The notes under the pieces: model-generated
The model's input: only the letters and a program-made list of their open reading frames with translations
What the model was told of the DNA's origin: nothing
Databases searched by the model: none
Program-made: the position numbers and the translations under genes
Assembly: GCA_944326125.1 (NCBI GenBank)
Contig: CALVCR010000066.1
Coordinates: 1 to 36,407 of the forward strand
DNA: 36,407 nt
Direction: 5' to 3'
Source: Candidatus Gastranaerophilales bacterium
Lineage (GTDB): Bacteria > Cyanobacteriota > Vampirovibrionia > Gastranaerophilales > Gastranaerophilaceae
Shown: in pieces, positions 14,667 to 34,134 of the stretch
Layout of the letters: every line of letters starts with the position of its first letter
Numbering within the stretch: the stretch's first letter is position 1

Positions 14667-17600
14667 TTAGAAGCTGAGGAAAGAACTATATTGGTTTTGC
14701 ATATTAGCAATAAGTAAATCCATAGTCTGGAATTTTGCTTCTAAGCGGGTTCTATATCTTTCTACAGAACGAGTTTGTCTGGTAATTTTTTCATCAATTC
14801 TCTGAATCTGATCTGCGAAAGAAGAATCCGCCGAATCAAAATAACCTGTTACAGAAGCCAGAGTAGATTCAATAAGATTTTCTACTTTTGAAAGCACTCC
14901 AGGATTATCATCAGTACCTACCAGGAAGGATTTTAATTCTTCCGGATGTTCACCATATGCTTCAAGAAATTTTTCCCTATCGAAATACAGCATATCGACA
15001 TTTTCTGTATCAATATTTGTTCCGCTTGCAGCTTCTGATGATATACCGATTGCATCAAGATTTTTAAATGTACTGTTTCCGGATAAAGAACTTGTCATCA
15101 AGCTTCTTAATTGCGTTCTAATAAGTTTAAGAGTCGTCTCACCATGCAAATCCCCTTCAATTGAAATTGCATCATTGACATTGGTCATAAGCTCATTGTA
15201 GGCATCTATAACATCTTCTATTGCGTCTGCGACTACTTCTTTATCCCTTTCAATAGTAAGAGTGACAGGCCCTTCCTCTGATACATCCTTAAGATTAATA
15301 GTAACACCCTCTATTCTTGAGATATCACTGGTAACAGTATTAGAGGTTGAAGTATATCTTGTGCCGTTTATAGTAAAACTTGCATTTGAACCAAGAGTCT
15401 GGTTCTCTACAGAAAGCCTTCTGACAGTTGAACCGTCAGGATTTATTTCAGTAGAAGTAAATCCCATAATATCGGTAAAGTTACTTGTTCCTGACTCTAT
15501 ATTAATAAGAGAAGAGCCTGTTGCACGGGATGTTATGACAAGTCGGCCGTCAATAGAATCCCAGTATGCAGTAGCATTTGCATCTTCACTTGAATTAATT
15601 TGCGAAATTAAATCGTTTACAGTCGTAGTATTGTCAATTGTAAATACTGCATTGCCAATGGTAAATGTACCTTCAGTTACATCACCGAGCCTGAATAGGC
15701 CTGATTCCATAATACGGGATGTAGCATTTACTTTATATAATTCTCTTGCACTTGTTATTGTGCCGTCTTCATTTTTGGTAAGACCGGCAACTGCAGAGAG
15801 GTTACTTGTATCTGTAGTAGTACCGATTTGCAGATCCCCTCCGTCATTTGCAAAGAAGGTCAGAATACCATTTTCAAATTTAACATCAACACCTTGAAGC
15901 GCAGAAGCAACTCTGGATCTGAATTCAGAGAATGTTTCTTCTGAATCTACTTGAACAACAGCTCTTTGACCATCTTTATATATAGTCAAGGACCCTGATG
16001 AAATATTCATCAAACTTAATTTTGTAGAATTATCAGCATAATTTGATACAGAGAGAGTTCTTTCTTCATAAGTTGTAACAGTCTGCATAACAGTATCAGA
16101 ACTTGCCGCATATCCGCCAAGATCATCATGGAATGTTAAATCAAGGTTCGTTACAAGGTTGGAAGAAGATGCTGCCGTATTAATACTTATCTCGTCAAAA
16201 CCGCTCTGAATAGTAAATACACCCTCAGAAACTGAAGCCGTAATACCTGCTGTTTCTAATTTATCTATTAGTGATCCTATCGTATCATCGGCTGTGATAT
16301 TTATTGTTTTTGCTTCACCATTAACATTCAATACAAGTGTACCTTCTGATTTAAGCTTAGAGCCGCCCCAATCTTTATCAAGGTCACTTAATAGGGTATC
16401 TTCATTAATTAAATCTGTTGACGTTGTTGTAACAGTTTCCGTCAGAGAAGCATTATAATTATAAGATGTATCCATACCATTAGGGAACAATACATCAACA
16501 ATATTAGATGCATTCAATACAGAATTTGATTTAGCTACATAAGAATCGCCATTGCCAAGAATTTTTAATGATGATTTGCCGTCTTGTATATTCAGACTTG
16601 CCTGAATACCAAATTGCTGAAGAGTCTGTATAAATGAATCCAGAGTATCATCTGCAGAAACCATCGCAGTATATCTTACACCATTATTATAAATATAATA
16701 TTCACCGGAAGTTATGCCGAGTTCAGAGAGCTTAGTATCACGCGTAACTGCTGTTTCTATAGTAGAAATTTCTATTTTATCAAGATCAGAGCTTTCGTAT
16801 ATATTTGTCTTAATCCAGTTAGCAGAATCGATACCCAGTATTTCAAGGGCATTTGAAGCTTTTTCTGAACCTGTGTAATTTTCAAGCGTAATATTACCGT
16901 TAGCACTGACTACCAGACTTCCATTTTGGTCAAGACCTGCATTGAAGCCATATGCATTGAGTTTACTAATCAAAGATCCTATAGTCTCATCCACTGAAAG
17001 CGAAATATTTGTTTTTACACCATTATTATTAACAGTAATAAAACCTTCTTCATAATTTATACCGTCAATATTAGCGAATTTAGTATCATTTGTAATATTC
17101 TGAACAGACTCTACTTTTGATTTTAAAGCATCCGAAGTATAGGTATTAATATACTTCCAGTCAGGGAAAAGCGTATCAACAATATTTGAGTTACTGCCGC
17201 TTGTTTGAGCAGTTTCAATATAAGAATTATTTCTGCCGCTTATAGAAATCGAGCCGTCAGAACCAAGACTTGCAGTAATTCCGTGAGCATTTAATGTAGC
17301 CAGAAAGTCTGCAACTGTAGTATCTGCAGTAATTGTTTCCGTGAGACGAACACCGTTTTCATATATATAATAAGCGCCTGTAGTAATACCGAGGAGAGCA
17401 CCGTCTGAACCGCGTAAATCTACCAATTTTGCATCGGAAGTTATAACACCTTCATTATTTATTTGTTCCTTAAGCGGGTCAGAAACAGTGTCATAGCTTG
17501 TAGACCAGTCGTTCGATATATTTAACTTATCAAGGATATTAGAAACATTGGATGTAAGGCCATCTGTTGTAAGATAACTGTTATTATTGCCATTGAAGTA

Positions 17601-20600
17601 CAATTTTCCGTCAGCGCCTATACCGATGGAAATATTGTAATTTGCAAGCTTGTTAGAAAGCGATTCTATGGTTTCATCACTATTAATATTTAATATTGAA
17701 CGATTACCGTCGCTGTATACATATACCTGTCCCGATGTAATTCCAAGATTATTACCTGAAGAATCAACAAGTTCTGAAAGTTTTGTTGTCATTGAAACTG
17801 TTTGAGTAGTAGTAATTGTCTTAGTCAAAGGTTTTGTAGACGTCTGAGACACCGGTGCAGTTGACGACGGGCTTAAAGGCGGAGTACTTGGAATAATTAA
17901 ACGATACGAATCAGACATTTGTGCAGAAGACGAGGTTGAGTAAGACTTGCCTTCACCGACTTCAATATTAAACCCGCCTGCTAACGCGCTATCCATACTA
18001 TAAATATAACCATCACCGCCGGATTCTATTGTAAGTTTATGAGTTGTATCAGAGAATGAGACAACTACGCCATTGTCGTTAAGGGCTTGTACAAAGTCAT
18101 CAATAGTATCAGTTGAGCTGAATGTAATTGTAGTATATGCTCCACTGTCGGAGGAAGCAACAACTACGGAAAAAGAGTTTTTGAGTATATTGGTTGATAT
18201 AAGCGATAAAGAAGACTCTGAAATTATTGGATCTTTTTTCATATATGGCGAAAGAGGGACAGAAACAGAGTCCGTAATTCCAGTAGGTCTGGTTGTCGGC
18301 AGGCGTAATGCATTCGCAAGCTGAGTCGATATTTTATCAACACTATATGATCCCGAACCCTCGCCGGAAATCGTTATTTTTCCGCCGCTAAATGATGCAT
18401 CTATATCATAACTGGCCAGTTTGGAAATTATTGTTCCTATAGTAGCAGTAGTGCTAAATGTAACAGCTACAGTACCTCCGGTAGTAGTAGTTAATGTAAT
18501 AGTCTGGGTAGAAGTAACCCCAAGCGTAGCTAACGTAGTAGAAATCGTAGCAGTCTTTGCAATACTTATAGGAATAGTAGGATCGGTACTCACAGGAAGA
18601 TTCGTATTCCTTTCAGTAGTGTCGGATGCTGACATAGTTGATACACCGGGGTTCGTTGACTGTTCAATAACAGAGAAAGACGGAAGTTCCGGAATGACAG
18701 GCCTACCCGGATCTATTATTGTCCCTTCATTGGGCTGAGTAGAAGTGGTCTGCTTCGTCATATAAGTAATAACGTTATCAGATACCCAATCAGTTTCTCC
18801 CATACTGGAAGCCCAATCAAAACCAAGAGCATCCATTAAAGCACCGGTAAGATAAGAATTACCTGAATCAGATGTTATCTTAATAGTTGCACCTTCTATA
18901 GCAGGACCAGAAGTCCCATCGCTGATAATAGTCGCGGTATATCCGTTATTATCAAGGAATTTAAAGAATTCTTCAAGTGTAGTTTCTGCAGTTAAGGATT
19001 CGGTACCAAATAATCTCGCTACATACCCACTAACTACATTATTTTTAATAAGAGTGTCTCCCGTACCAAGTTTAGCCGGATCAATACCCAAATCTGCAAA
19101 GGTTGTAGTTAGGTCAGGGGTGATACACATAGTAACATTTGCAACCACCGCTGAAGAAGAAGTCTGCCCTATACCAGAACTTGCTCCAGAGCCTTCTGTT
19201 TCAACGCCGAAATCTTCAAGGAGAGCGCCTTCTGCATAAACTCCGGAAGATGTATCAAATGAAAGTTTTCCGAAGGACATCGTCACATCAATACCATTAT
19301 CTGCAAACACATCAATAAGATCCTGGAATGTAGCATCCTGTGTAAATGTATAGCCACCAGTAACCGCACCGGTAGCAGAGTCTTTAAAAGTTATAATAAA
19401 ATCACTTGTTTCTGCTACACTGGAGAGTTCTGTTGTTTTATTCGCAATCTGCCCGGTAACCTGTGAATTTCCAGTAGTAAATGACGGAGGAAGGGGTGAA
19501 CCGGCCGTCTCAAGTCCGACGAGTTCTTCAAACTGGGTATTAGCAATCACTCCGCCTTCAATCTTGAATACACCATCTTCAAGTGAAGCAGTCGCACCAT
19601 GTCCGTTTATCCAACTTATCATTTGTCCGAATGTTGTTGTTTCAGCCATTGTAGTCGTATAAGAAGCTCCATCAACAGTCATGGTAAACTTTTCTGTTCC
19701 TACAAACCCAATATCACCCAATGTAGAATTTAAATCCACATCAGTTTCTTCTGTAATTACGGCATAAACCGGATCAGAAGATGTATACTTTCCTGAAATC
19801 ACTTCTTTAAAGCCAAATATTTGGCTAATCAAGGCACCTGTACCCGAGCTTGGAGAAGCAAGTGTTGCACCGCTGATAGTAAGTTTTGAAGTAGCAGAAT
19901 CGAAATCAGCGGAAATACCCTTTGCATCTAAAGCACTAATCATACCCTGTATTGTCATATCAGAAGTTAAAGTTACGGTCACATTTCCAACACCCTGCAC
20001 ATCAAACGTTACAGGCGTTGTACCGTCTGTAAGCCCGAGAGAACTCAGTTTAGTAGTCAAAGATGCATTAACAGTCTCAGAGCTTTCATATTTTAAAGAT
20101 TCAGATTTAGAATGCGCAGACCCGGAGGTTATATTGTCTACAAAATCAGTACCATACAATTTCGTTAGCAGATCCGTACCTTGAATAAGACTCGGATCTG
20201 TTTCTATTATTTCACCGGTATCTACAAGACTTTGAACCTCAGAATCGCTCAAGGCTGCAAAAGTGCCGCCTGTTATTGTAAGAACCCCCGTATTAGAATC
20301 AATACTGGCACTTATACCCATCTTTGAATAATCATTGATCAGATCCCCGATAGTCATATCTTCAGAAATTTTTTCGTAATAGGTATCTCCATCGCCGTTT
20401 GTTACCTTAAGATACCCTGCCTTAACACCAAGGTCTTCTACAAGACGAGTATCTCTCGTCGCTATCACATCGTTTGTAACAGTCTCTTGCAAAGCATTAC
20501 CGGTAACAATTCCTGTGAGAGGACTCGATGTCAAGTCAAACGCATCAATTGCATCAAATGTTCCTCCGACTATCTCTCCTCCTGAAATAGTAACAGTGCC

Positions 20601-21794
20601 GTCATCATTCAAAGAAGCTGTAAGACCTGACGCTTCCAAACCATCAAATAGATCTCCCAGAGTACTTGTTGAATTTAAAGTTATTGTAGCCGTTTCATTA
20701 TTAGAGTTTCTCACCACAACGGTATCGCCATCAGCAACCCCTGTATCCACTATATCATCAAGCAGAGTATCTAAAGTAGCTGTTGTAACATCGGTAACAA
20801 CAGTAGTATAAGTTAGGTCTTCGCTTTCCTGAATGTTTGAATTAACATCTTGTACCAAGCCAAAAGCAGCAATAAGACCTGTTGTCCCATCATTTGTTAT
20901 AATTGCATCTTCCAGTTTAAAAGTTCCGTCGGTTAACGATGCATTAATATTCTCATCCTTTAACGCCTGTATAAATTCCCCTAAAGTAGTATTTTCATCA
21001 ATTTCAACATTATAAATTGCATCATTAGCTTCTATTGTCAGAGTACCGGCTTTTACGCCCAGATCAGACATCAAAGTATTTTCATCGGCAGCTTTGTATA
21101 TGGTATCTTCATTTTTAATTGTCAACTTATCACTTTGATAACCTTCATTAACACCTTCAAGATGTAATGCATTGACTATACCGGTGTTATCAATATCATT
21201 TATATCATTAACACCGAGATTTATATTAAAAATACCTGTATCATTATTAAAACTTGCATTAACCCCGATATTATTCAATTTGTCAATAAAAGTCTGAATT
21301 GTATCGTTTTCACTAATATACAGATTTTGTTGTATTCCGTTAACGTTAACCCCTATATTTCCGGCTTTTACCCCCAAATTTATAAGTTTAGAATCGGAAG
21401 TAGCTGTTGTAGTAGAAACTATTGTTGTTGTGTACTTATACCCACTCACTGCCTGGGTTGAGGTTGCCAGCTTATCAACGTCAATTTCATATGTAGCTTC
21501 TTTAGCTTCTGCAGTAGCGATTGCGGATAATATATCGGCATTTGATGATGTAGCAAGGTTTTGGGCAAAAATGTCCATTGAGCCTATATTAAACTTTGTG
21601 TCTGTTACCTTCTCCAATACAGAACGAAATGATGTAAAAAACGACTTAATATTAGCTACGGCTTCACGGGTGGTGGTGACTAAATCTTTTTCTTCTTCAA
21701 GCTCGGTGACTTTCGCTTGTTTCAATGATACAAGCGATTCTACCCATGATGATGTATCTAAACCTGATGCTAATCCGCTGAATGAAATAGTCAT
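14667..21794 (-). CDS. Giant FliD-like flagellar cap protein (hook-associated protein 2 type), paralogue 1
   Basis: A 2375-residue protein; ordinary FliD has about 400-700. FliD caps the flagellar filament and folds incoming flagellin. Residues 1-~110 are a FliD N-domain (SGLASGLDTSSWVESLVSLK, then a coiled-coil region). Residues ~2154-2375 are a FliD C-domain (VIDAYNELM, FKNLDAIGI, VTGYFDSAD, and a final coiled coil ending NMQNQYSSFLSF). Between them lie about 17 Flagellin-IN-like repeats and a Pro-rich linker near residues 1050-1090. There is no signal peptide, consistent with export through the flagellar secretion system. The ribosome site is weak (AGGA in a leader hairpin). Whether it is a true cap, a tip fibre or an adhesin is unknown; no other flagellar gene is near. 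Confidence 0.85.
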   Translation of the reverse strand: MTISFSGLASGLDTSSWVESLVSLKQAKVTELEEEKDLVTTTREAVANIKSFFTSFRSVLEKVTDTKFNIGSMDIFAQNLATSSNADILSAIATAEAKEATYEIDVDKLATSTQAVSGYKYTTTIVSTTTATSDSKLINLGVKAGNIGVNVNGIQQNLYISENDTIQTFIDKLNNIGVNASFNNDTGIFNINLGVNDINDIDNTGIVNALHLEGVNEGYQSDKLTIKNEDTIYKAADENTLMSDLGVKAGTLTIEANDAIYNVEIDENTTLGEFIQALKDENINASLTDGTFKLEDAIITNDGTTGLIAAFGLVQDVNSNIQESEDLTYTTVVTDVTTATLDTLLDDIVDTGVADGDTVVVRNSNNETATITLNSTSTLGDLFDGLEASGLTASLNDDGTVTISGGEIVGGTFDAIDAFDLTSSPLTGIVTGNALQETVTNDVIATRDTRLVEDLGVKAGYLKVTNGDGDTYYEKISEDMTIGDLINDYSKMGISASIDSNTGVLTITGGTFAALSDSEVQSLVDTGEIIETDPSLIQGTDLLTKLYGTDFVDNITSGSAHSKSESLKYESSETVNASLTTKLSSLGLTDGTTPVTFDVQGVGNVTVTLTSDMTIQGMISALDAKGISADFDSATSKLTISGATLASPSSGTGALISQIFGFKEVISGKYTSSDPVYAVITEETDVDLNSTLGDIGFVGTEKFTMTVDGASYTTTMAETTTFGQMISWINGHGATASLEDGVFKIEGGVIANTQFEELVGLETAGSPLPPSFTTGNSQVTGQIANKTTELSSVAETSDFIITFKDSATGAVTGGYTFTQDATFQDLIDVFADNGIDVTMSFGKLSFDTSSGVYAEGALLEDFGVETEGSGASSGIGQTSSSAVVANVTMCITPDLTTTFADLGIDPAKLGTGDTLIKNNVVSGYVARLFGTESLTAETTLEEFFKFLDNNGYTATIISDGTSGPAIEGATIKITSDSGNSYLTGALMDALGFDWASSMGETDWVSDNVITYMTKQTTSTQPNEGTIIDPGRPVIPELPSFSVIEQSTNPGVSTMSASDTTERNTNLPVSTDPTIPISIAKTATISTTLATLGVTSTQTITLTTTTGGTVAVTFSTTATIGTIISKLASYDIDASFSGGKITISGEGSGSYSVDKISTQLANALRLPTTRPTGITDSVSVPLSPYMKKDPIISESSLSLISTNILKNSFSVVVASSDSGAYTTITFSSTDTIDDFVQALNDNGVVVSFSDTTHKLTIESGGDGYIYSMDSALAGGFNIEVGEGKSYSTSSSAQMSDSYRLIIPSTPPLSPSSTAPVSQTSTKPLTKTITTTQTVSMTTKLSELVDSSGNNLGITSGQVYVYSDGNRSILNINSDETIESLSNKLANYNISIGIGADGKLYFNGNNNSYLTTDGLTSNVSNILDKLNISNDWSTSYDTVSDPLKEQINNEGVITSDAKLVDLRGSDGALLGITTGAYYIYENGVRLTETITADTTVADFLATLNAHGITASLGSDGSISISGRNNSYIETAQTSGSNSNIVDTLFPDWKYINTYTSDALKSKVESVQNITNDTKFANIDGINYEEGFITVNNNGVKTNISLSVDETIGSLISKLNAYGFNAGLDQNGSLVVSANGNITLENYTGSEKASNALEILGIDSANWIKTNIYESSDLDKIEISTIETAVTRDTKLSELGITSGEYYIYNNGVRYTAMVSADDTLDSFIQTLQQFGIQASLNIQDGKSSLKILGNGDSYVAKSNSVLNASNIVDVLFPNGMDTSYNYNASLTETVTTTSTDLINEDTLLSDLDKDWGGSKLKSEGTLVLNVNGEAKTINITADDTIGSLIDKLETAGITASVSEGVFTIQSGFDEISINTAASSSNLVTNLDLTFHDDLGGYAASSDTVMQTVTTYEERTLSVSNYADNSTKLSLMNISSGSLTIYKDGQRAVVQVDSEETFSEFRSRVASALQGVDVKFENGILTFFANDGGDLQIGTTTDTSNLSAVAGLTKNEDGTITSARELYKVNATSRIMESGLFRLGDVTEGTFTIGNAVFTIDNTTTVNDLISQINSSEDANATAYWDSIDGRLVITSRATGSSLINIESGTSNFTDIMGFTSTEINPDGSTVRRLSVENQTLGSNASFTINGTRYTSTSNTVTSDISRIEGVTINLKDVSEEGPVTLTIERDKEVVADAIEDVIDAYNELMTNVNDAISIEGDLHGETTLKLIRTQLRSLMTSSLSGNSTFKNLDAIGISSEAASGTNIDTENVDMLYFDREKFLEAYGEHPEELKSFLVGTDDNPGVLSKVENLIESTLASVTGYFDSADSSFADQIQRIDEKITRQTRSVERYRTRLEAKFQTMDLLIANMQNQYSSFLSF
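15345..21404 (-). repeat. Array of about 17 Flagellin-IN-like protein repeats in paralogue 1
   Basis: From residue ~131 to ~2150 a unit of roughly 90-130 residues recurs. Its pattern is: T-K-L-S-x-L-G-(I/V), a beta hairpin with NG or DG, D-(D/E)-T-I-G-x-(L/F)-I-x-x-L, then G-I-x-A-S-(L/F), and finally G-x-(L/F)-x-I-x-G. The copies are diverged, so this is an old array rather than a fresh tandem duplication. I counted units by eye. Confidence 0.75.
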
Positions 21795-21796
21795 AA

Positions 21797-21836
21797 AGCT
21801 GCTGTCCTGCGCCGTTTTAGTCTACCTTAAGCAGCT
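21797..21836 (-). promoter_or_regulatory. Leader hairpin at the start of giant FliD paralogue 1
   Basis: In the mRNA AGCUGCU (21836-21830) can pair with AGCAGCU (21803-21797), closing a 26-base loop that holds the only Shine-Dalgarno-like AGGA. The stem ends 2 bases before the AUG, so it could limit translation. Confidence 0.4.
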
Positions 21837-21945
21837 GCAAATATTCTCGTATCGGGGTAACTGCCTTGTCTTACAGAATCTTTCTCTTATTAATACTACA
21901 TGTGTGTTTCCAGTTGAAAATAATGCATCGCTACTTTATATACTT

Positions 21946-21974
21946 AGTATAGCATAAATGATATGTTTTTACAA
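21946..21974 (-). promoter_or_regulatory. Promoter of giant FliD paralogue 1
   Basis: On the minus strand TTGTAA (21974-21969), 17 bases, TATACT (21951-21946), preceded by TGC (extended -10). The leader would be about 145 bases. It is a sigma-70-type promoter, not the GCCGATAA type used by the flagellar sigma-28. Confidence 0.65.
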
Positions 21975-22010
21975 GTGGCACTTATTTTACTTATTAAAAA
22001 AGCTGTTTCA

Positions 22011-22038
22011 TTGTCTGTTTTCATGCTAAAATTATAAA
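22011..22038 (+). promoter_or_regulatory. Promoter of the arnT-like-waaA pair
   Basis: TTGTCT (22011-22016), 16 bases, TATAAA (22033-22038). An overlapping extended -10, TGCTAAAAT (22024-22032), is an alternative. GGAGGAG (22044-22050) is the ribosome site. Confidence 0.45.
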
Positions 22039-22054
22039 CACTTGGAGGAGAGAT

Positions 22055-23722
22055 ATGGGAAAGATTCTCAGAATTAAGAACTTTATACTCAAACATCCGG
22101 AATTTTTTACAATTCTTGGACTAGGAGTATTGTTTTACTTTATTTTCTTTGCAGGAATAGGAACTTACGCTCTTATGGATGTTGATGAGTCAAGATATGT
22201 TTCAATGTCCAAAGATATGTTTTTATCAAGAGATTTTTTAACACTTTATCTTAATAATGAGTTCTTTTTTGAAAAACCTCCTCTATATTTTTGGGGAGAA
22301 TGTATTTCCTTTGCTCTTTTTGGAAAAATCAATGAATTTACTGCAAGATTTCCTGTTGCATTATACGGAACTCTTTGCTGTTACCTTGCATATTTTATGG
22401 GAAGAAAAATTATCTCAAGAGGATATGGCGTAATAACAGCACTTATTCTTGCAACAAGCCTTGAATTTGTTATTTTGGCCAAATTTGCAATACTGGATAT
22501 AGTTGTTGCAGCCTGTATTTGGGCTTCTATATGTTTTGGAATATCCGTATATTTTTGCAGAGAATCACATAAAAAATTCTTCTGGTGGATGTTTTATATA
22601 TTCTCAGGCCTTGCTGTAATGGCAAAAGGAATACCGGGTTTTGTCGTACCATTTGGAACCATGTTTTTTGTATCGATTGCGGCAGGCAAGTTTAAAGAAA
22701 TTTTTAAACCCCAGTATTTTCTGGTGGGAATGGGGTTATTTCTACTAGTTACCTTACCCTGGCATTTAATAATGTTTAAGCTGCACAACCCTTTATTCTG
22801 GGACGAATACATTATAAAGCATCATTTAAAAAGGTTTCTAGGGGAGGGCGGTATTAACCGTACACAACCTTTCTACTTTTATTTTTTGACATTACTCTGG
22901 GGATTTTTCCCTTGGAGCATTTCTTGTCTAAGTGTATGGATCAAAGATTTAGTAAAAATTATTAAAGAAAAGAATTGGAGCTTTGACATCAAAGCATTAA
23001 GCACGGAACAAAGATTTATTTTTTATAATGTAATTACAGTCGTATTTACATTATTGTTCTTCACATCATCAAAAACAAAACTTATAACATATATTCTTCC
23101 TATGTATGGCTCTTTAGCCTGCATTGGAGCTTATGTTTGGTATAATTACATTAAAAAGATTTCTAATGAAAAAATTATTAATATAACGGTTTATGTTGTC
23201 GGCGGCATATTTTTATTCGCGACACTGGCATCCATATTAACACCAATTTATCTTCCAAAGCAGCTATATCAAGATATATCGACAGTCAAAACCTTTTGTG
23301 TAGTTACATCCTTCGCTTTTGGATTGGCTTCAATCATGTTTGCAAAAAGAAAGTTATATAAAGCGGTTTTTGCCTCTTATATACTTTTAATTCTTGCTTT
23401 TTCAGCTTATGCAACAGAAAAATTCTTTGAAATAGACTATGCCTTCGGACAAGCAGACCTTTTAAAATTTGCGGAATATGCAAAAAAGCATAACGTCACA
23501 CTTACAACCTACGGATTTGCCCAAAAATATTCCCTTATTTTTTACAGCGGGCAGCCTGTTTTGTATAAAAAGCATATGAAACCTTCTGAGCTGGAAAAAG
23601 CTCTGGATAAAGATAAAAATATGGTTATTATTCCTTATAAAAAAATGGACGAAGTTAAGGACGTCAATTTTGATATAATTAAAAACGGAAGAAGATATGC
23701 ACTTGTTGATGAGGATATGTAA
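22055..23722 (+). CDS. ArnT-like family 39/83 membrane glycosyltransferase
   Basis: A 555-residue integral membrane protein with about 11-13 hydrophobic segments, the size of ArnT. The first periplasmic loop carries DVDESRYV (42-49), with the acidic residues that bind the polyprenyl-phosphate sugar donor, and FFEKPPLYFW (71-80), a hallmark of the ArnT/PMT-like family. Such enzymes move a sugar such as aminoarabinose from undecaprenyl phosphate onto lipid A or another envelope acceptor. Neighbouring waaA (one-base stop-start overlap) supports an LPS role. The exact sugar is unknown; no arn pathway genes are present, so calling it arnT would be too specific. Confidence 0.85.
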   Translation: MGKILRIKNFILKHPEFFTILGLGVLFYFIFFAGIGTYALMDVDESRYVSMSKDMFLSRDFLTLYLNNEFFFEKPPLYFWGECISFALFGKINEFTARFPVALYGTLCCYLAYFMGRKIISRGYGVITALILATSLEFVILAKFAILDIVVAACIWASICFGISVYFCRESHKKFFWWMFYIFSGLAVMAKGIPGFVVPFGTMFFVSIAAGKFKEIFKPQYFLVGMGLFLLVTLPWHLIMFKLHNPLFWDEYIIKHHLKRFLGEGGINRTQPFYFYFLTLLWGFFPWSISCLSVWIKDLVKIIKEKNWSFDIKALSTEQRFIFYNVITVVFTLLFFTSSKTKLITYILPMYGSLACIGAYVWYNYIKKISNEKIINITVYVVGGIFLFATLASILTPIYLPKQLYQDISTVKTFCVVTSFAFGLASIMFAKRKLYKAVFASYILLILAFSAYATEKFFEIDYAFGQADLLKFAEYAKKHNVTLTTYGFAQKYSLIFYSGQPVLYKKHMKPSELEKALDKDKNMVIIPYKKMDEVKDVNFDIIKNGRRYALVDEDM

Positions 23723-24960: not shown

Positions 24961-24985
24961 ATTTGCAATATATGAATGTTATACT
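24957..24985 (+). promoter_or_regulatory. Promoter of giant FliD paralogue 2
   Basis: TTGAAT (24957-24962), 17 bases, TATACT (24980-24985), preceded by TGT. Spacing, -10 box and extended -10 match the paralogue 1 promoter. The leader is about 105 bases. Confidence 0.62.
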
Positions 24986-24999
24986 GAATATATAACAAG

Positions 25000-25054
25000 A
25001 ACAGTTAAGTTTACCCTGTAAGTTTTTGTGAAAGGATCCAAAAACTAAACTGTT
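25000..25054 (+). promoter_or_regulatory. Leader stem-loop of giant FliD paralogue 2
   Basis: AGTTTTTG (25021-25028) pairs with CAAAAACT (25039-25046), and AACAGTT (25000-25006) pairs with AACTGTT (25048-25054), leaving a 14-base bulge on the 5' side. An alternative pairing of 25000-25012 with sequence around 25043-25054 is possible, so the leader could switch shape. Confidence 0.4.
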
Positions 25055-25096
25055 TTTAGAAAAACGGATATTTTATCATACAGAGACGGCAAGTAT

Positions 25097-28000
25097 ATGA
25101 CAATATCATTCAGCGGATTAGCGTCAGGTTTAGATACATCTTCCTGGATTGAATCACTTACGGCACTGAAACAGGCTAAAGTTGATACACTTGAGGAAGA
25201 AAAAGAAGCTGTTGCTTTATCCAGAGAAACGCTGAATAATATTAAATCATTCTTTACATCTTTCAGATCACTAATAGAAAAAGTGACTGATACTAAGTTT
25301 AATGTATCCTCTATGGATTTGTTTGCACAAAAACTTGCAACATCTTCAAATACCGACATTTTAACAGCAATCGCAACTCCTGAAGCTGATGAAGGCACGT
25401 ATGAAATAAAAGTCGACAAACTTGCCAGCAATGCTAAAGCTACCAGTGAATATACATACTACACAACTATTGTTGAAACCACTACGGCAACTAATAATTC
25501 TAAACTTAAAGATCTGGGAATAAAATCCGGCAATATTGGAGTTACAGTTAACGGTGCGGAACAAATCGTTAATATAAGCGAAAATGATACAATAAAAGAA
25601 CTTGTAAACAAGCTTACAAATATTGGAGCTAATGCAAGCTTTAACGAAGAAACAGGGATATTCAATATAAATGTTGGAGCAGATGCCATTAATGACATTG
25701 ATAATACGGGCATTATTGACGGATTAAACTTGAGCGGAGTAAATAAAGGCTATTCATCAGGAGAATTAACCACAGAAAAAATTGAAACCGTTTACAATCC
25801 TGCAGACGGAAATACAAAGGTTTCCGAACTGGGAGTAAAAGCCGGTGACATTATTATCCAGGCTAATGATGCAGAATATCAACTGACAATCGAAGATGAT
25901 GATACCATTCAAGATATTCTGGACGCACTTAATGCCAATAATATTGATGCTAAACTGGAAAACGGCATATTTTCAATTAATAATGCAATTATAGTTGATG
26001 ACGGGACTACAGACTTAATTGATGCATTTGGTTTGACAAGCGAAATCGGCTCAAGCACACAAAAAAGCGACAGCCTGTCTCAGGAAACCCAAATTACCGA
26101 AACAGTAAGTGCAACTTCCGATACATTGCTAAAGGATTTAAACGGGGCTTCAGGGCTAAAAGACGGAGATACGGTAATCGTTAAAGATGCTGAAAATAAC
26201 TTTACCACTATTACATTAAGTGAAACAAGTACTCTTGGAGATTTAATTGACAAACTAAATGATGCAGGTTTAACAGCTATACTTAGAAGCAACGGGAAAG
26301 TCGCAATTTCAGACGGCATTATCACCGGCGGAAGCTTTGACCTTGAAGGAGTTCTCGGACTTGAATTCGGTCAAATATCAGGAATTGTTACCGGTTCATC
26401 ATTAATAACTGAAACAGAAGTATATGCAGATGAAAATACTACATTTTCAGAACTCGGTATAGACTCTGCTGAATTCCAGGTCCTAAATTCCGACGGCGAC
26501 CTTGTTACAAGCTTGAATATAACCGGAAGTCAGACTCTGGGCGAGCTTTTTGAGAATTTAAGCACTAATTACGGAATTGAAGGATCTATCAGCAACGGAG
26601 TTATAAGACTCACATCCGATAGTGGAAATGTTCTTATTGCAGATGAATTAGGCATTGGAACAGAAACTATAGTATCACAAACAATCATAACTCAAACTTC
26701 AAACTCAAATATAGAATGGTCAAATACTATTACAGCAGACAGTTCAACAACATTTGCAGACCTTGGGCTTGATGGTTTGGAATATCAAATAACAAATGCA
26801 GAGGACAGTGTTTTATTAGAAGGACAGCTTGAAGGAACTGTTCAAGACTGGTTTAATACTCTCTCCGGATATGGCATAACAGCATCTATAAATGACGGGA
26901 TTATCTCCTTCACATCTGCAAACGGAAACAAAATTATAGGCGAAGCAGCAGATGCAATGGGCTTGGAAACTACGACAAGCATAAGTACTGTAACGAATAT
27001 AGTAGTATCTTCAGAAAGTCCTCTATACTCAACAGTGACACAAACAGTTTGGGCTGATGGAAATACACGGCTGGACGAAATTATTGACTGGAACAACTCA
27101 TCTTCATCTACAGTCACTTACAACATTACCGGGACTATTAATTCTGATGGAGAAGTTACTCTTTATGATGAATACAATTCTCCATTAGCCAGTGTAACTC
27201 TTTCTGCTGATATGACCGTACAGGAAATGCTGGATGAACTTGCGAAGATCGGAGTAAAAGGTCATATATCCAACGGTGTTATTACACTCGATGCCGGAGA
27301 TAAACAGTACCTCAAAGGTGATATTATTGATGCATTAGGCATTGAAAATACCATCCATTCAAAAACTGTATTATCAGCAGAATACACATATGCCACAATC
27401 TCTGCAATAACCTCAAAAGATCCGGCATTAAGCGATTTAACACAGTTAGGACAAGACTATGGCTCTTACACAATCACCGGCACACTTAACGCTGACGGAT
27501 CAATCACAGGAGGCACTGTTGTTGCCGTGTCAACAGAAGCCGACTTGAAAGCAATGGCTGAATATACTTATGAAGGCGAATCTTATAATGGTTATATATT
27601 TGTTTTAACAAATGATATAAAGTTAACCGACTCCAACTGGGAACACCAGATTCAACTTGGAGATGCAAGTATTTTTGACGGACAAGGTCATAATATTGAA
27701 CTTAATATATCAAGCTCCGGAAATGCTGCACTATTTCATTCTGCAGGAGGTGATTGGGGTGGAATAAAAAATCTTTCTACAAGCGGGACTGTTATTGCAC
27801 TTGGCACCGGTACAGCTGCTGGAATCACAAACTTTTTATGGAGTGATAGTACTTTTATAAATGTTTCTTCTTCAGCAACTCTTATTTCAAAGAATGGAAG
27901 CGCGTCCGGACTTATTGGAACCTCATTATCAAATTCCAGTATCAGAAATGTTGAATTCTCTGGAACTATTATTGCAAACAGCGGGAAGATCGGTGGTATT

Positions 28001-31000
28001 GTTGGTACATTGGGGTGTGTATTAGAACAGGCTGTTTTTAGCGGTACAATTAATGCTGCACAACAAACGAATTCATATATTGGAGGTATTGCCGGATATA
28101 TGGAATCAACCGCTTCCGTAAGAAGATCAATAGTAACAGGAGACGTTCTGGTCACTGATACAACTTCTGGAACCTACAATATTGGAAATGTAGCAGGCTA
28201 TCTTGAATTACAAACAAATAGAACCATAAATATTGCAAATACATGTTATACCTATAGCTCTAATAGTCATTGGGGAGCAACTGGTAACGGAGGTAATGCT
28301 GTGAATAGTTATGTATCTGAAGTAATCAGCACAACAGAAGAAAAACTTGTAACTGATGCTGCAGGTATACTAAATTTAGCTCCTGAGGTATTCACCTATG
28401 ATCCTGATAATCCTGAAGGTGGAATTCACAAACGTGCAGTTTCCTCGCGTAATATTGATATTTATGACAGCAATAACAACCTGGTAGATACAGTTGTTGT
28501 TCATGATGGAATGAGTTTAAACGACATTAATAGCGAACTGAGTAAATACGGTGTTGAATTTACACTTGGCGGAGGCGGTGTAATCGGTGTAGACAACTCC
28601 GGAACGCATTATATTGACGGCGGCTTCCTTGATAATTTAGGTATCAAACTTGAGGGAGTTAATGTTTTTGAAGAAATCGATTCAGTTGAAGAATCTGCTT
28701 CAGATCAATTTACTACCGAAGGCAAAGGTTATATAACAGAAGATACCCTATGGAATGATATAGAAGGAAACCTCCAGACTGGCAACGGGATTGATGTTGT
28801 TAATGAAGACGGTTTCGTCGCAAATATCCAAACGGCTGGAAAGACCCTTGGCGAAATATTTGACGAACTTGCAATATACGGCATAACAGGGTCTATTAAT
28901 GATGGAAAATTAACTTTTACAAGTCAAAACGGATACAGTATATCAGACCCGATCGATCTTGTAGATGAAACTGGCTGGACATTCACAACCAACATCTCCT
29001 CCGGAACCACTGCCGGTAAAGTTTTTGAATCCACTCAAACAGTAACTTATACAGAAGAAAGCGCAATTACTCTGAATACCAAACTTGGAGACTTTTTAGA
29101 TTTAAGCGATACTATAATTTATAATCATAATGTCTCTGACGGAAGTGTAAATGAAAAAGATCTTAACGACCTTGCTCAAGATAACTATAATAAGACAGCT
29201 GAAGAACTTACCGTAGCAGAATTCTTAAATATTTTGCATTGGGATCTCAACTACGATACCGGCTTTTCCGACAATGGAGAAATTTCTTTATCAATTGAAG
29301 ATGGAAGCTATTACCTTAGCGGCTCAATCTTTGACCAGATGGGTATTGACATTGAATCCGGAGTTACTACCGGCGTATCACTGACATCTTCCAGTGCAGT
29401 TACGTATGAATCTATTGTTGGTATCCAAACAGTCACAACCGGCGCTACACAAACTTCTACAAGCGCTGTTACATACGCCGAGTACACAGGTTATAGCACT
29501 TTTGCCACAGTTAACGAATCGACTACACTAACAAGCGGAAGCTACGTTATATCAACAACTGCGGACTTACAAAAACTTTCAACAATGACTAATAGCGGTA
29601 AAATTGGTGCTGACACATATTTTATCCTGGCTAATAATATAAACTTTTCAAACACAACACTTACTGCAATAGGAACAGAAGCTAATCCGTTTAAAGGAAC
29701 CTTTAACGGAAACGGATACACAATAAGCAATCTAAAACTAACATCAACAACTACCGGCAGAATTGCGTTGTTTGGAGTTACAAAAGGTGCTACGATCACA
29801 AATATAGGAGTATCAAATTTAAATATTAGCACAAGTTCAGCTGATGGCGGCCAAGTTGGCGGACTTGTAGGTATTGCATATTCTTCAACTAAAATATCTA
29901 ACAGTTATGTAACAGGAACTATTAGAATAACAGGCTCAAATGGCGGTTGTGTTGCAGGACTTGTAGGAAACTTAAGAGAAAAAAGTTCTGTTACCAATTG
30001 CGCAGCCAGTGTATATGTAAGTGCAACAGGAGACAACATCGGCGGTTTTGTCGGAATGGTTAAACAAGCCTCCATTGAAGATAGTTTTGCAAAAGGAACC
30101 GTAACTGGAGGTGGCAAGAAAGTAGGCGGATTTGCAGGAAACTCTTATTCCGCAACTATAAAAGATTCATGGTCAAGCGGAAGCGTAAGCGGAAGTTCTA
30201 ATATTGGCGGATTTTTAGGTTATGCTGAAAATACGCCGAGTATTTCAAATTCAAAATTCTATAATAATAGCAGTCTTTCAGGTTGCGGCAATAACAGCTC
30301 TTTAAGCGGTATTACGAAGATGACAGGATCAGCACCGACCACATCTGTCACATCAAAGCTAGGCTCCAAAATAGTAATACCAAAACAAACAAAAACAATG
30401 ACTTCAAGTACAACTTTTGCCCAGCTGGGACTTTCTGCTAATGAAACAATAACACTCATATCAGATGGAACAACATATACTTATACTGTTACTACAACAG
30501 CTTCAGTAGGAACATTGATGAATTACTTGAATGGTAAAGGATTCACAACATCCCTAACCTCAGGTAAACTCACCATTAAAGGTGCTGAAGGAGTATATTT
30601 TAAAACAGACTTCTCTGACACACTTGACGGTTTATTAAATTTCGCGGAAAAATCCGGATACGGCTCAAGCGGGATTGCAACACTCCAAACTATGACGCTC
30701 ACTTCCACTGAGACTATTACGGAAGATACTTCCATGAGTGAGATTTATGATTTTAACCCAGCTCATCCATCAGAAGAAATTTGTATAATAGATAATGGTA
30801 GCAGAAAGTATATTGCTATAAGTCCAAATGATACTATTGGTGAATTTATAGACAAAATGAATGACGCAGGGATACAAGCCTCCCTTTTAAACGGAAAACT
30901 ATATTTAACACCTGAATCAGGAATTACCTTTGAGCATTATCAGGGAAATGATTACTTGCTAGGCGCCTTTAATATTGATGATGAAGCTTATTATAAAACA

Positions 31001-31150
31001 TACGTTGAGCAAACAATGACCACTTCGGATCCTTTATACACCGGCGAAACCAAAACCCTCACTGGAGATACAACTATTAGTGATCTGGGACTTTCTGCAA
31101 GCAATATTAATATTGAAATATCAAAAATGGCGAAATTGTCGGTTCAATAA
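25097..31150 (+). CDS. Giant FliD-like protein, paralogue 2, N-terminal part up to a frameshift
   Basis: A 2017-residue frame opening with the same FliD N-domain as paralogue 1 (SGLASGLDTSSWIESLTALK, then a near-identical KSFFTSFRS region). Then come about 11-12 Flagellin-IN-like repeats interrupted by two GLUG modules (residues ~807-1081 and ~1480-1722). The frame ends in the middle of a repeat with the non-family tail MAKLSVQ. One base of slippage restores the repeat, so the intact protein would have about 3012 residues. Alone, this product lacks the FliD C-domain and probably cannot form a cap. The start at 25097 matches paralogue 1; its ribosome site is weak (GAGACGG). Confidence 0.82.
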   Translation: MTISFSGLASGLDTSSWIESLTALKQAKVDTLEEEKEAVALSRETLNNIKSFFTSFRSLIEKVTDTKFNVSSMDLFAQKLATSSNTDILTAIATPEADEGTYEIKVDKLASNAKATSEYTYYTTIVETTTATNNSKLKDLGIKSGNIGVTVNGAEQIVNISENDTIKELVNKLTNIGANASFNEETGIFNINVGADAINDIDNTGIIDGLNLSGVNKGYSSGELTTEKIETVYNPADGNTKVSELGVKAGDIIIQANDAEYQLTIEDDDTIQDILDALNANNIDAKLENGIFSINNAIIVDDGTTDLIDAFGLTSEIGSSTQKSDSLSQETQITETVSATSDTLLKDLNGASGLKDGDTVIVKDAENNFTTITLSETSTLGDLIDKLNDAGLTAILRSNGKVAISDGIITGGSFDLEGVLGLEFGQISGIVTGSSLITETEVYADENTTFSELGIDSAEFQVLNSDGDLVTSLNITGSQTLGELFENLSTNYGIEGSISNGVIRLTSDSGNVLIADELGIGTETIVSQTIITQTSNSNIEWSNTITADSSTTFADLGLDGLEYQITNAEDSVLLEGQLEGTVQDWFNTLSGYGITASINDGIISFTSANGNKIIGEAADAMGLETTTSISTVTNIVVSSESPLYSTVTQTVWADGNTRLDEIIDWNNSSSSTVTYNITGTINSDGEVTLYDEYNSPLASVTLSADMTVQEMLDELAKIGVKGHISNGVITLDAGDKQYLKGDIIDALGIENTIHSKTVLSAEYTYATISAITSKDPALSDLTQLGQDYGSYTITGTLNADGSITGGTVVAVSTEADLKAMAEYTYEGESYNGYIFVLTNDIKLTDSNWEHQIQLGDASIFDGQGHNIELNISSSGNAALFHSAGGDWGGIKNLSTSGTVIALGTGTAAGITNFLWSDSTFINVSSSATLISKNGSASGLIGTSLSNSSIRNVEFSGTIIANSGKIGGIVGTLGCVLEQAVFSGTINAAQQTNSYIGGIAGYMESTASVRRSIVTGDVLVTDTTSGTYNIGNVAGYLELQTNRTINIANTCYTYSSNSHWGATGNGGNAVNSYVSEVISTTEEKLVTDAAGILNLAPEVFTYDPDNPEGGIHKRAVSSRNIDIYDSNNNLVDTVVVHDGMSLNDINSELSKYGVEFTLGGGGVIGVDNSGTHYIDGGFLDNLGIKLEGVNVFEEIDSVEESASDQFTTEGKGYITEDTLWNDIEGNLQTGNGIDVVNEDGFVANIQTAGKTLGEIFDELAIYGITGSINDGKLTFTSQNGYSISDPIDLVDETGWTFTTNISSGTTAGKVFESTQTVTYTEESAITLNTKLGDFLDLSDTIIYNHNVSDGSVNEKDLNDLAQDNYNKTAEELTVAEFLNILHWDLNYDTGFSDNGEISLSIEDGSYYLSGSIFDQMGIDIESGVTTGVSLTSSSAVTYESIVGIQTVTTGATQTSTSAVTYAEYTGYSTFATVNESTTLTSGSYVISTTADLQKLSTMTNSGKIGADTYFILANNINFSNTTLTAIGTEANPFKGTFNGNGYTISNLKLTSTTTGRIALFGVTKGATITNIGVSNLNISTSSADGGQVGGLVGIAYSSTKISNSYVTGTIRITGSNGGCVAGLVGNLREKSSVTNCAASVYVSATGDNIGGFVGMVKQASIEDSFAKGTVTGGGKKVGGFAGNSYSATIKDSWSSGSVSGSSNIGGFLGYAENTPSISNSKFYNNSSLSGCGNNSSLSGITKMTGSAPTTSVTSKLGSKIVIPKQTKTMTSSTTFAQLGLSANETITLISDGTTYTYTVTTTASVGTLMNYLNGKGFTTSLTSGKLTIKGAEGVYFKTDFSDTLDGLLNFAEKSGYGSSGIATLQTMTLTSTETITEDTSMSEIYDFNPAHPSEEICIIDNGSRKYIAISPNDTIGEFIDKMNDAGIQASLLNGKLYLTPESGITFEHYQGNDYLLGAFNIDDEAYYKTYVEQTMTTSDPLYTGETKTLTGDTTISDLGLSASNINIEISKMAKLSVQ
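27517..28340 (+). repeat. First GLUG-type adhesin module in FliD paralogue 2
   Basis: Residues about 807-1081 begin with the entry pattern VSTEADLKAMAEYTYEG. Repeats follow in which a G-(G/S)-(I/L)-(A/V/I)-G core alternates with SIRNVEFSGTI-like strands. This is the beta-helix pattern of GLUG repeats found in bacterial surface adhesins. It is absent from paralogue 1. Confidence 0.75.
29536..30262 (+). repeat. Second GLUG-type adhesin module in FliD paralogue 2
   Basis: Residues about 1480-1722 begin ISTTADLQKLSTMTNSG, then FKGTFNGNGYTISNLKL, then four clear GLUG units: GGLVGIAYSSTKISNSYVTG, AGLVGNLREKSSVTNCAA, GGFVGMVKQASIEDSFAKG and GGFAGNSYSATIKDSWSSG. A fifth, partial unit follows (GGFLGYAENTPSISNSKF). 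This is the best-preserved GLUG block in the window. Confidence 0.88.
31121..31131 (+). other. Single-base frameshift site in an A-run
   Basis: The run at 31123-31127 has five As. Frame 2 reads TCA AAA ATG GCG and stops at 31150. Re-reading one A gives AAA AAT GGC GAA, i.e. KNGEIVGSIKASSSS, which continues the repeat and is open to 34134. One missing A, or a -1 slip of the lysine codon AAA onto AAA, explains it. Confidence 0.88.
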
Positions 31151-34134
31151 AAGCTTCCTCAAGTTCAACCACAATAAACGACATTATCCAACAGCTTGAT
31201 GCATACGGTATTGAAGCTTCAGTAGAAAACGGAAAATTCAAAGTAACCGGATACAGCGATGATTATTATATCTCAAATATCAGCTCACAGCTTGCAAAAG
31301 CTCTCAATCTTGAAGAAGCTAACGGCAGCGATAATCCTTATTATACAAACAAGCCGGGAGAAACGGAAGGCAGCTCTGACAGGCTTACCCATGAGTCTCT
31401 TGAAAAAATAACGCTTGATACTAAATTTGGAGATATAAAAGGATACAAAAACGGCCTTGTTTATATCGAAAGCGCAGGCGGAAATGTTATTGCAACAATC
31501 ACGATGAGTGAAACAAATACCGTAAGAGATTTATTTAATATGCTTGAATCCTACGGTATAAGCGGAAGTGTTGATTCCTCCGGAAAAGTAACGTTGCAAT
31601 CCACAAACGGAAGAAGTATTTCCGGTGACTTAGTAACTTTATTTGATCTTAACAAGTCTGAAACAGTACAATCAGGCACAGTTAATACAAAATCAAACAC
31701 ACTGCTTACAACATCTACCGTAAGTGCAACTTTAACCACTAAATTAGCAGATCTCGCTAACGGAAGTTACCAAGACGGTTTTATAACGATTGTAAAAAAC
31801 GGAGCTGAAACAAATATTTCATTATCAGCTGACGAAACTATCGGATCATTAATGGAAAAACTCCGTGCACAAGGATTTTCAACCTCATTTACAAACGGTC
31901 AGCTTACAGTAAGTGCAAACAGTGACATTAAACTCAAAAAATACACTGGAACATCACAAGCTTCTAATGCATTAGAGCTATTGGGAATAGACGAAGCCAA
32001 CTGGAAAGATACCAGCACATATAAAGCCGGAAGCGCAGAAATCACGACAATTTATACGTCTACAACATCTGTCGAGGGAACAACCCAGCTCGGAGAGCTT
32101 GGTATTACAGACGGATATTTCTATATTTACAATAACGGTGTCCGCTATAAAGCAATGGTTTCATCAACAGATACCTTTAACGACTTAAGAGAAACACTCG
32201 CAAGATTCGGCGTACAATCAGGTTTAATAAATATAAATGGTGAGACAAGGTTTGTTTTAACAGGCAACGGCGAAAGCTATATGGAATCTGTACCTAATTC
32301 ATCAAACATAGTAGACGTTCTATTCCCTAATGGTATTGAAACAACCTATGATTACTCTGCAAACCTGCAAACTTCAGTAACAACAAAACACACAATAACT
32401 GCAGAAAAAGATGTTCTGCTCAGCGAATTTGATACGGATTGGGGAACTTCAACCCTAACCAGTGCTGGAACACTTTCCTTAACAATTGACGGGCAAAACC
32501 ATACAATTACAATAGGAACGGATGAAACTTTCGGAAGTCTTATGCAAAAATTCGAAGAGCTGGGAATAAATGCATCTCTGGCAAACGGAAAACTTACTTT
32601 ATCCGCAGGCAGCAAAGACTTCACTATCAATCAGACCGGTTCAAGTTCAAATCTGATTAATAACCTTGGTTTGACATACAGCGACGACCTTGGCGGCTAC
32701 ATGTCAAGTGATTCGATCGTAGAAGCTACCACTACAACTATTGTTGAAGAAACAGGCTCAGTCGCAAACAGTGCTGATTATTCAACAAAATTAGGCCTTG
32801 TTAATATTTCATCAGGGACTTTCTCTATATATAGAGACGGACAAAAAGCTGTTATACAAATTGATGAAGACGATACGTTTGCAGACCTTAGAAGTAAAAT
32901 ATCTTCGGTATTTTCCGATGTTGATTTGAAATTTGAAAACGGAATGCTTCAAATTTATTCAAAAACAGAAGGTGTTGAAATCAATGCTAGTGCAAGTTCT
33001 GACAGTTCTAACATAACAGCAGTCCTCGGACTTACATCTACAGATGGAATGGTAACAGCCTCCAGAGAAATTTATCGTGTAAGCGGAGATTCGCTGCTCA
33101 CTGAGTCAGGTTTGTTTAGGAAAGGTGATGTAACAGAAGGTACATTCACTATTGGCGATGCCACATTTGAAATTACAAGCACAACAACACTCAATGACAT
33201 TATCTCTCAGATTAATGCTTCAGAAAAATCCAATGCCTCTGCATACTGGGATTCCGTTGACGGCAAGCTCGTAATAGAATCCAGAACCTCAGGAGCTGCT
33301 CTTATTAACATAGAAAGCGGAACCAGCAACTTTACGGACATTATGGGCTATACTTCAACAGACAGCTCCGGTATCAAACGACTCAATTCAGGTGCGCAAG
33401 AAATCGGAAGCAACGCAAAATTTTCTATTAACGGAACAAATTACACATCTACGTCAAACACCGTTACAAGTGATATTTCAAGAATAAAAGGTGTAACCCT
33501 TAATCTGAAGAAAATATCAGAAGAAGGCGAAAGCGTAACTCTAACTATAGAAAAAGATTCCGAAAAACTTATGGATGCAATTTCAGAAATTGTAGATTCA
33601 TATAATGAACTTATTGAAAATGTAGACAAAGAAATAGCAAGTGACGGTCAATTAAAAGACCAAACAATGCTTAAGCTTATCCGTAACCAGTTAAGGAATC
33701 TTATGACAGGCTCCTCTTACGGAAACTCTGTATTTAAAAATCTTGACGCAATCGGTATAGATTTTGACAGTGCAAGTGCAAATGATATTTCAACAGAAAA
33801 CGTAAATAAACTCTTCTTTGACGAAGATAAGTTCCTTGAAGCATATACAGAGGATTCTGAAGCGCTAAAAGATCTCCTTATAGGAACTGAAGATAACCCT
33901 GGCATCTTCATAAGAGTAGAAGATATTGTTGAATCTTCACTAAAATCAGTTACCGGATATTTTGATTCTGCCGATAAATCCTATGCAGACGAAATAGAAC
34001 GTTATGATACAAAAATTGAAAGAGCTAATAAAGCAGTTGAAAGATATAGAGCAAGATTAGAAGCTAAATTCCAATCAATGGATATGCTTATTGCGAATAT
34101 GCAAAATCAGTACAGCTCATTTTTATCTTTATAG
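31126..34134 (+). CDS. Giant FliD-like protein, paralogue 2, C-terminal part after the frameshift
   Basis: Coding sequence resumes at 31126 in frame 1; the first ATG in this frame is 31504 and has no ribosome site, so a separate start is doubtful. It encodes about 1002 residues. The last six or seven Flagellin-IN-like repeats closely follow the last repeats of paralogue 1 (for example TEGTFTIGDATFEI against TEGTFTIGNAVFTI). Then comes a FliD C-domain of about 222 residues (IVDSYNELIENV, FKNLDAIGID, VTGYFDSADKSYADEIERYD, ending NMQNQYSSFLSL). Joined to the upstream part it gives a full FliD-type protein with about 18 repeats. Whether the genome really carries the lesion needs raw reads. Confidence 0.82.
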   Translation, partial: NGEIVGSIKASSSSTTINDIIQQLDAYGIEASVENGKFKVTGYSDDYYISNISSQLAKALNLEEANGSDNPYYTNKPGETEGSSDRLTHESLEKITLDTKFGDIKGYKNGLVYIESAGGNVIATITMSETNTVRDLFNMLESYGISGSVDSSGKVTLQSTNGRSISGDLVTLFDLNKSETVQSGTVNTKSNTLLTTSTVSATLTTKLADLANGSYQDGFITIVKNGAETNISLSADETIGSLMEKLRAQGFSTSFTNGQLTVSANSDIKLKKYTGTSQASNALELLGIDEANWKDTSTYKAGSAEITTIYTSTTSVEGTTQLGELGITDGYFYIYNNGVRYKAMVSSTDTFNDLRETLARFGVQSGLININGETRFVLTGNGESYMESVPNSSNIVDVLFPNGIETTYDYSANLQTSVTTKHTITAEKDVLLSEFDTDWGTSTLTSAGTLSLTIDGQNHTITIGTDETFGSLMQKFEELGINASLANGKLTLSAGSKDFTINQTGSSSNLINNLGLTYSDDLGGYMSSDSIVEATTTTIVEETGSVANSADYSTKLGLVNISSGTFSIYRDGQKAVIQIDEDDTFADLRSKISSVFSDVDLKFENGMLQIYSKTEGVEINASASSDSSNITAVLGLTSTDGMVTASREIYRVSGDSLLTESGLFRKGDVTEGTFTIGDATFEITSTTTLNDIISQINASEKSNASAYWDSVDGKLVIESRTSGAALINIESGTSNFTDIMGYTSTDSSGIKRLNSGAQEIGSNAKFSINGTNYTSTSNTVTSDISRIKGVTLNLKKISEEGESVTLTIEKDSEKLMDAISEIVDSYNELIENVDKEIASDGQLKDQTMLKLIRNQLRNLMTGSSYGNSVFKNLDAIGIDFDSASANDISTENVNKLFFDEDKFLEAYTEDSEALKDLLIGTEDNPGIFIRVEDIVESSLKSVTGYFDSADKSYADEIERYDTKIERANKAVERYRARLEAKFQSMDMLIANMQNQYSSFLSL

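Follow-up and report, generated by a model that had tools for sequence, protein, structure and literature searches.

The window analysed here, a stretch of 36,407 nucleotides, encodes two giant proteins (gene A and gene B; Table 1), and their domain content, predicted fold and phylogeny support their assignment as paralogues of the flagellar filament cap protein FliD, in a lineage-specific family that would stand beside the ordinary cap. The window is a contig (C66) of a 1.72-Mb MAG (86% complete), the named relatives of which are Candidatus Gastranaerophilales and Melainabacteria MAGs, several of them labelled as rumen or colon. We posit, at about even chances, that the giants constitute a second cap-type tip protein, with a head in the form of a long looped arm, the distal surface of which evolves fast and probably serves adhesion or recognition.

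Table 1. Coordinates of gene A, gene B and their parts (nucleotide positions within the window)
Feature	Position	Strand	Basis
Gene A, intact giant FliD-type protein, 2375 aa	14667..21794	-	Single ORF; same-locus orthologues in three relatives
FliD_N of gene A (leg, N-terminal half; aa 10-112)	21459..21767	-	E 4e-15, 56.6-64.3 bits
17 Flagellin_IN-like beta-beta-alpha-beta-beta repeats of gene A (aa 136-2111)	15462..21389	-	Iterated profile; last four by fold
Fastest-evolving middle of gene A (aa 761-1120)	18435..19514	-	35-44% identity to three orthologues
FliD_C of gene A (leg, C-terminal half; aa 2135-2367), ending in a predicted helix of ~75 residues	14694..15392	-	E 2e-37, 129.3-136 bits
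Gene B, first piece, 2017 aa: FliD_N, 11 repeats, two GLUG blocks	25097..31150	+	ORF, Pfam, repeat profile
FliD_N of gene B	25124..25432	+	59.8-67.2 bits
GLUG block 1 of gene B	27908..28147	+	Span of profile matches; longer when judged by eye
GLUG block 2 of gene B (a beta-solenoid by prediction, resembling the N-domain of IgA1 proteases)	29534..30268	+	Profile, AF2, fold
Frame-change stretch of gene B (gene interrupted)	31117..31150	+	ORF frames; intact relative
Gene B, second piece, other frame: 7 repeats, FliD_C	31117..34134 (open 31117..34131)	+	ORF, Pfam, repeat profile
FliD_C of gene B	33406..34107	+	E 4e-38, 131.8-136.7 bits

Domain composition of the giant proteins

The initial annotation of the window recognized FliD N- and C-domains in both genes, and this is borne out: FliD_N and FliD_C match above the curated Pfam cut-offs in gene A and, split over two frames, in gene B. 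In the PDB, the C-terminal profile of the giants hits structures of the FliD cap (9m6i, 9gnz; E ~1e-21), and Foldseek on the C-terminal model of gene A returned FliD chains as the best matches. That model (AF2; last 696 aa, 38-row alignment, pLDDT 75) consists of four beta-beta-alpha-beta-beta modules and a C-terminal helix of ~75 residues; its low pTM (0.38) means that the arrangement of the domains, including any loop, is not given by the model. The leg fold of gene A is identified by model and profile in its C-terminal half and by sequence in its N-terminal half; conservation in the giants extends to both leg halves and the C-terminal helix. The best score against the NCBIfam FliD equivalog is 115 bits, below the cut-off of 387; by that standard the giants are not orthologues of the standard cap, as expected of divergent paralogues.

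The count of 17-18 repeats agrees with an iterated repeat profile, seeded from gene A and iterated over relatives, which finds 17 repeats of ~75 aa in gene A (median spacing 115 aa) and 18 in gene B (11 + 7), with a spacing of ~105-115 aa in the two genes. The repeats resemble Flagellin_IN, as had been proposed, but stay below its Pfam cut-off in the two genes: against PF07196 only the last repeat of gene B comes near (22.4 bits, cut-off 22.7), one divergent giant (clade II, see below) matches at E 1e-29, and the remaining repeats connect via the iterated profile. The ordinary FliD of the genus has 2 repeats and ~585 aa, so that the estimate of four to six times the usual cap length also holds. 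Partial, weak Pfam matches of the beta-beta-alpha-beta-beta repeats to OTU1_UBXL, CBS and Rad60-SLD were treated as look-alikes.

Gene A is an intact giant, as originally read; the 3012 residues attributed to gene B join two frames, and the span of 9038 nt is not a multiple of three. An intact gene B orthologue of 2989 aa is encoded in one relative (G282; L164), lying between waaA and dnaE as in the window, whereas in G279 waaA adjoins dnaE directly and gene B is absent from that site. The frame change may be a true interruption, phase-variable, or an assembly error.

Gene B also carries GLUG motifs (PF07581, E 3e-13), which the initial annotation overlooked. In the giants, GLUG blocks lie inside the repeat array, with repeats on both sides, and not beside FliD_N or FliD_C. 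Those of gene B match the N-terminal domains of IgA1 proteases by profile (E 7e-23) and fold; the AF2 model of one block is a beta-solenoid followed by two modules (pLDDT 72, pTM 0.58). GLUG was found in 34 of 92 giant rows, some of which are redundant. An IgA1 protease (M26) was rejected as an identity for the giants, the match being to the GLUG/N-terminal region alone with no metallopeptidase domain among the matches in the giants scanned. An autotransporter-type adhesin was likewise rejected: the ends are FliD_N and FliD_C, the Pfam matches include no barrel family, and the repeats match no autotransporter-type family in Pfam, the signal peptide having been judged by eye only. Other known adhesin families gave no Pfam match, no carbohydrate-binding or enzymatic domains were recognized by Pfam among the giants scanned, and inspection by eye revealed no Sec signal in the giants. 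Elsewhere in the window, a 122-aa Gly/Ser-rich ORF (1861-2229, + strand) contains repeated SGSIA-like motifs.

Flagellar genes of the host and distribution of giants

The host MAG has eleven Flagellin_N matches, seven Flg_bbr_C matches (rod/hook-type proteins) and a flagellar-type FlhA, so that the proposed search of the genome for flagellar genes gave a positive result. A third FliD_N match, 56 aa long, sits at a contig end (C131); it is 96% identical to the ordinary FliD of G279, a protein of 584 aa, and rnhB adjoins both this fragment and the ordinary fliD of G279. Thus, the host has an ordinary FliD that is cut by the contig end, and the giants would be accessory caps rather than the cap itself. 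The window indeed contains no other flagellar gene, as had been remarked, but the ordinary fliD of these genomes likewise lies outside any flagellar cluster.

Across the family, FliD_C was identified in 90 of 239 genomes, and a giant (an open frame of >=1000 aa with FliD_C; our own count of the listed frames) in 28 of 239. The giants span six genera of this one gut family (g1, g6, g9, g29, g33 and g40; g9 on weak matches); within the window's own genus, one is encoded by at least 25 of the 33 genomes searched. All occur in genomes with a flagellar-type FlhA, called at 817 bits or more (28/93, against 0/146 genomes without it; Fisher p ~2e-13), which disfavours the earlier suggestion of a non-flagellar appendage. 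The patchy presence of FliD_C and FlhA fits the report that a complete set of flagella genes is confined to a part of the Gastranaerophilales (Soo et al.; PMC4040986). The survey covered the family, order and class of the host; in the order's other families, 20 genomes had one FliD match each, with listed frames of up to 736 aa, and in the rest of the class the listed FliD frames were <=799 aa. Two genomes without a full giant (G059 and G213) have giant-type C-terminal tails of 37-38 aa, at least one of them at a contig end; giants are therefore probably under-counted, and their genes seem to break metagenome assemblies. A literature search for giant, multiple or paralogous FliD found nothing relevant.

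In a FliD_C tree of 138 rows, the ordinary FliDs fall outside two clades of giants. Clade I (67 rows; support 100/99; genera g1, g29 and g40) includes gene A and gene B, and clade II (7 rows; support 100/100; genera g6 and g33) is on a long branch. Placement of clade II in the tree is unsure, given the long branches in this sequence phylogeny. Clade I also contains a few short rows, which are cut by a contig end, interrupted by a stop (L094) or, in one case, a protein of 346 aa that lacks a head (L143:9719-10756, from G111), with FliD_N, FliD_C and zero repeats. Intact open giants number 40, the shortest of 1215 aa and the longest of 11061 aa. Of these, 35 belong to clade I, with FliD_N by our own profile (1215-6603 aa), and 5 to clade II (3837-11061 aa). 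Their heads are arrays of Flagellin_IN-like modules, 7 to ~45 in number, and GLUG blocks often sit mid-way. Three giants in the set are interrupted, namely gene B and two genes (L092, near 6590; L094, near 6560) with one in-frame stop each and both parts otherwise open; another (L097) contains an assembly gap. In genus g6 (L062, L178 and L179) a divergent giant and the ordinary fliD share a strand and are close together or immediately adjacent, which may hint that the giant arose by duplication. Two sequences titled 'uncultured Acinetobacter' (L137 and L141) carry a Gastranaerophilales-type ordinary FliD, and these labels look wrong.

Nearly every genome of the family, the host among them (G000:C60:6338-8314; L187), encodes a second FHIPEP, an export gate of FlhA/SctV type (~720-735 bits), and this holds even for genomes with neither FliD nor a flagellar-type FlhA. 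The giants could be secreted through the flagellar gate or through a gate of this second type, and stay free or loosely bound to the cell without assembling; their lack of genetic linkage to flagellar genes, the coexisting ordinary FliD and the family-wide second gate are all compatible with such a fate. We nevertheless consider it unlikely: the leg halves and C-terminal helix are conserved past the needs of export alone, and genomes without a flagellar-type FlhA have no giants, though nearly all of them have the second gate. A sigma-28-type promoter motif is no more frequent upstream of the giants than in shuffled sequences, and the same is true of the ordinary FliD and the flagellins.

Variability of gene A

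The locus of gene A is common to three relatives (G327, G279 and G282), in which the protein measures 3437, 3181 and 3503 aa, respectively, versus 2375 aa in the window. The neighbouring proteins are 96-98% identical to those of G327, bar an 852-aa ORF with a long acidic middle (7555-10113, + strand) at 83%. Whole-length identity of gene A to its three orthologues is 64-67%. This divergence is concentrated away from the ends: the first 115 aa are 90-94% identical to the orthologues and the last 245 aa 80-89%, and among the three orthologues the middles fall to 25-32%; the values at this locus are 25-48% for the middle versus ~80-94% for the ends. By comparison, the ordinary FliD of the same genomes has a constant length (578 aa each) and 79-96% identity in every region. 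The repeats average 30% protein identity; one pair in G327, at 94%, is a recent duplication. Tandem repeats at the DNA level were rejected as the source of the length change, only short chance rows being present.

Relative to G327, dS is 0.2-0.6 in the neighbours and ~1-1.9 in gene A, which suggests that alleles of gene A have been exchanged, faster mutation being the alternative reading of the same sequence comparison. The dN/dS ratio of gene A is <1 wherever it is computable, consistent with relaxed constraint or with diversification, without proof of positive selection. One reading of this pattern is that the giants cap some filaments and that the variable loop mainly evades antibodies, phages or grazers instead of adhering. 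Such an antigenic or phage-facing shield would accord with the fast divergence of the middle, the varying length and the apparent allele exchange, but an adhesin would give the same pattern, a few copies at the tip would cover little surface, and positive selection is not demonstrated by these dN/dS values; we hold evasion as the main function to be rather doubtful.

It is improbable that the giants are simply an alternative cap for a subset of filaments, with ordinary capping as the main job and the long head tolerated or structural. The host has several flagellins, and in other bacteria capping survives an exchange of heads (PMC8533109), but a head of 1000-10000 aa is expensive to make and its length varies, whereas the ordinary cap stays constant. 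The proposition that the giants are decaying or selfish repeat genes without function is highly unlikely, given that the interruptions in three giants and the absence of gene B from the waaA-dnaE site of G279 are set against 40 intact giants, which argue for selection keeping the frames open, the prevalence of giants in the genus of the window and the dN/dS values below one.

A putative accessory cap and its relation to known systems

Under the accessory-cap reading, the giant would leave the cell unfolded via the flagellar export gate, and its leg domain would seat it at the filament tip in the manner of FliD. FliD-filament compatibility is set by the terminal helices, and heads are swappable, even for larger ones (PMC8533109). 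Because the N- and C-terminal ends both belong to the leg domain, the array must go out and return, so that the head would jut out as a loop of modules with both ends at the filament and the middle of the sequence as the distal part. It is with this mid-sequence that both the variability peak and the GLUG blocks of the giants coincide. The tip fibre for attachment envisaged in the initial annotation thus fits the anatomy and the variability profile, short of proof, but as a loop rather than a free-ended fibre.

As the fastest-evolving part, the distal region would be where contact is made. Its role would most likely be adhesion to, or recognition of, mucus, gut or rumen material or partner cells, and gain and loss of repeats together with allele exchange would maintain the diversity of the head. 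FliD of P. aeruginosa has been implicated in mucin binding, with direct interaction not demonstrated, and purified Pelotomaculum FliD bound methanogen cells (PMC4009794). The leg may suit any partner with flagellin-like ends, which would allow a position at the hook-filament junction or free secretion.

More broadly, we tentatively propose, while rating it below an even chance, that Gastranaerophilales make a distinct tip structure of accessory FliD caps, the looped-arm heads of which reach 11,000 residues. These caps would use the flagellar channel for export and diversify as a surface antigen does, so that the tip is a variable recognition device. If so, the flagellar cap, usually viewed as a conserved assembly chaperone, would, in these common gut relatives of cyanobacteria, have been duplicated and remodelled as a tip appendage that is both giant and variable; moreover, a chain of 11,061 residues would be an extreme cargo for the narrow flagellar channel, making the limits of export testable.

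Among known systems, the giants share with the FliD/HAP2 cap the leg halves at both ends, the long terminal helix, head modules of Flagellin_IN type and, as judged by eye, the lack of a Sec signal. They differ from it in having a head of serial modules and GLUG blocks in place of D2-D3, in their length (~470-800 aa is usual in the class) and in being additional to an ordinary FliD. The GLUG domain of IgA1 proteases (3n6z, 6xja) is matched by the gene B blocks, but no M26 protease domain was recognized in the giants scanned, in which GLUG is inserted into the head of a FliD-type protein. Giant repeat adhesins have export and anchoring signals different from those of the FliD giants. They likewise consist of very long arrays of small beta-domains, but Foldseek similarity to the ice-binding adhesin (4p99, 5irb) is weak (probability 0.33 or less), and on this evidence the two are not homologous. 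Giant flagellins, of greater than a thousand residues, are also flagellar export substrates enlarged by a solvent-exposed variable region (PMC6248924); they are filament subunits, whereas the giants described here are cap-type, much longer and built of repeats.
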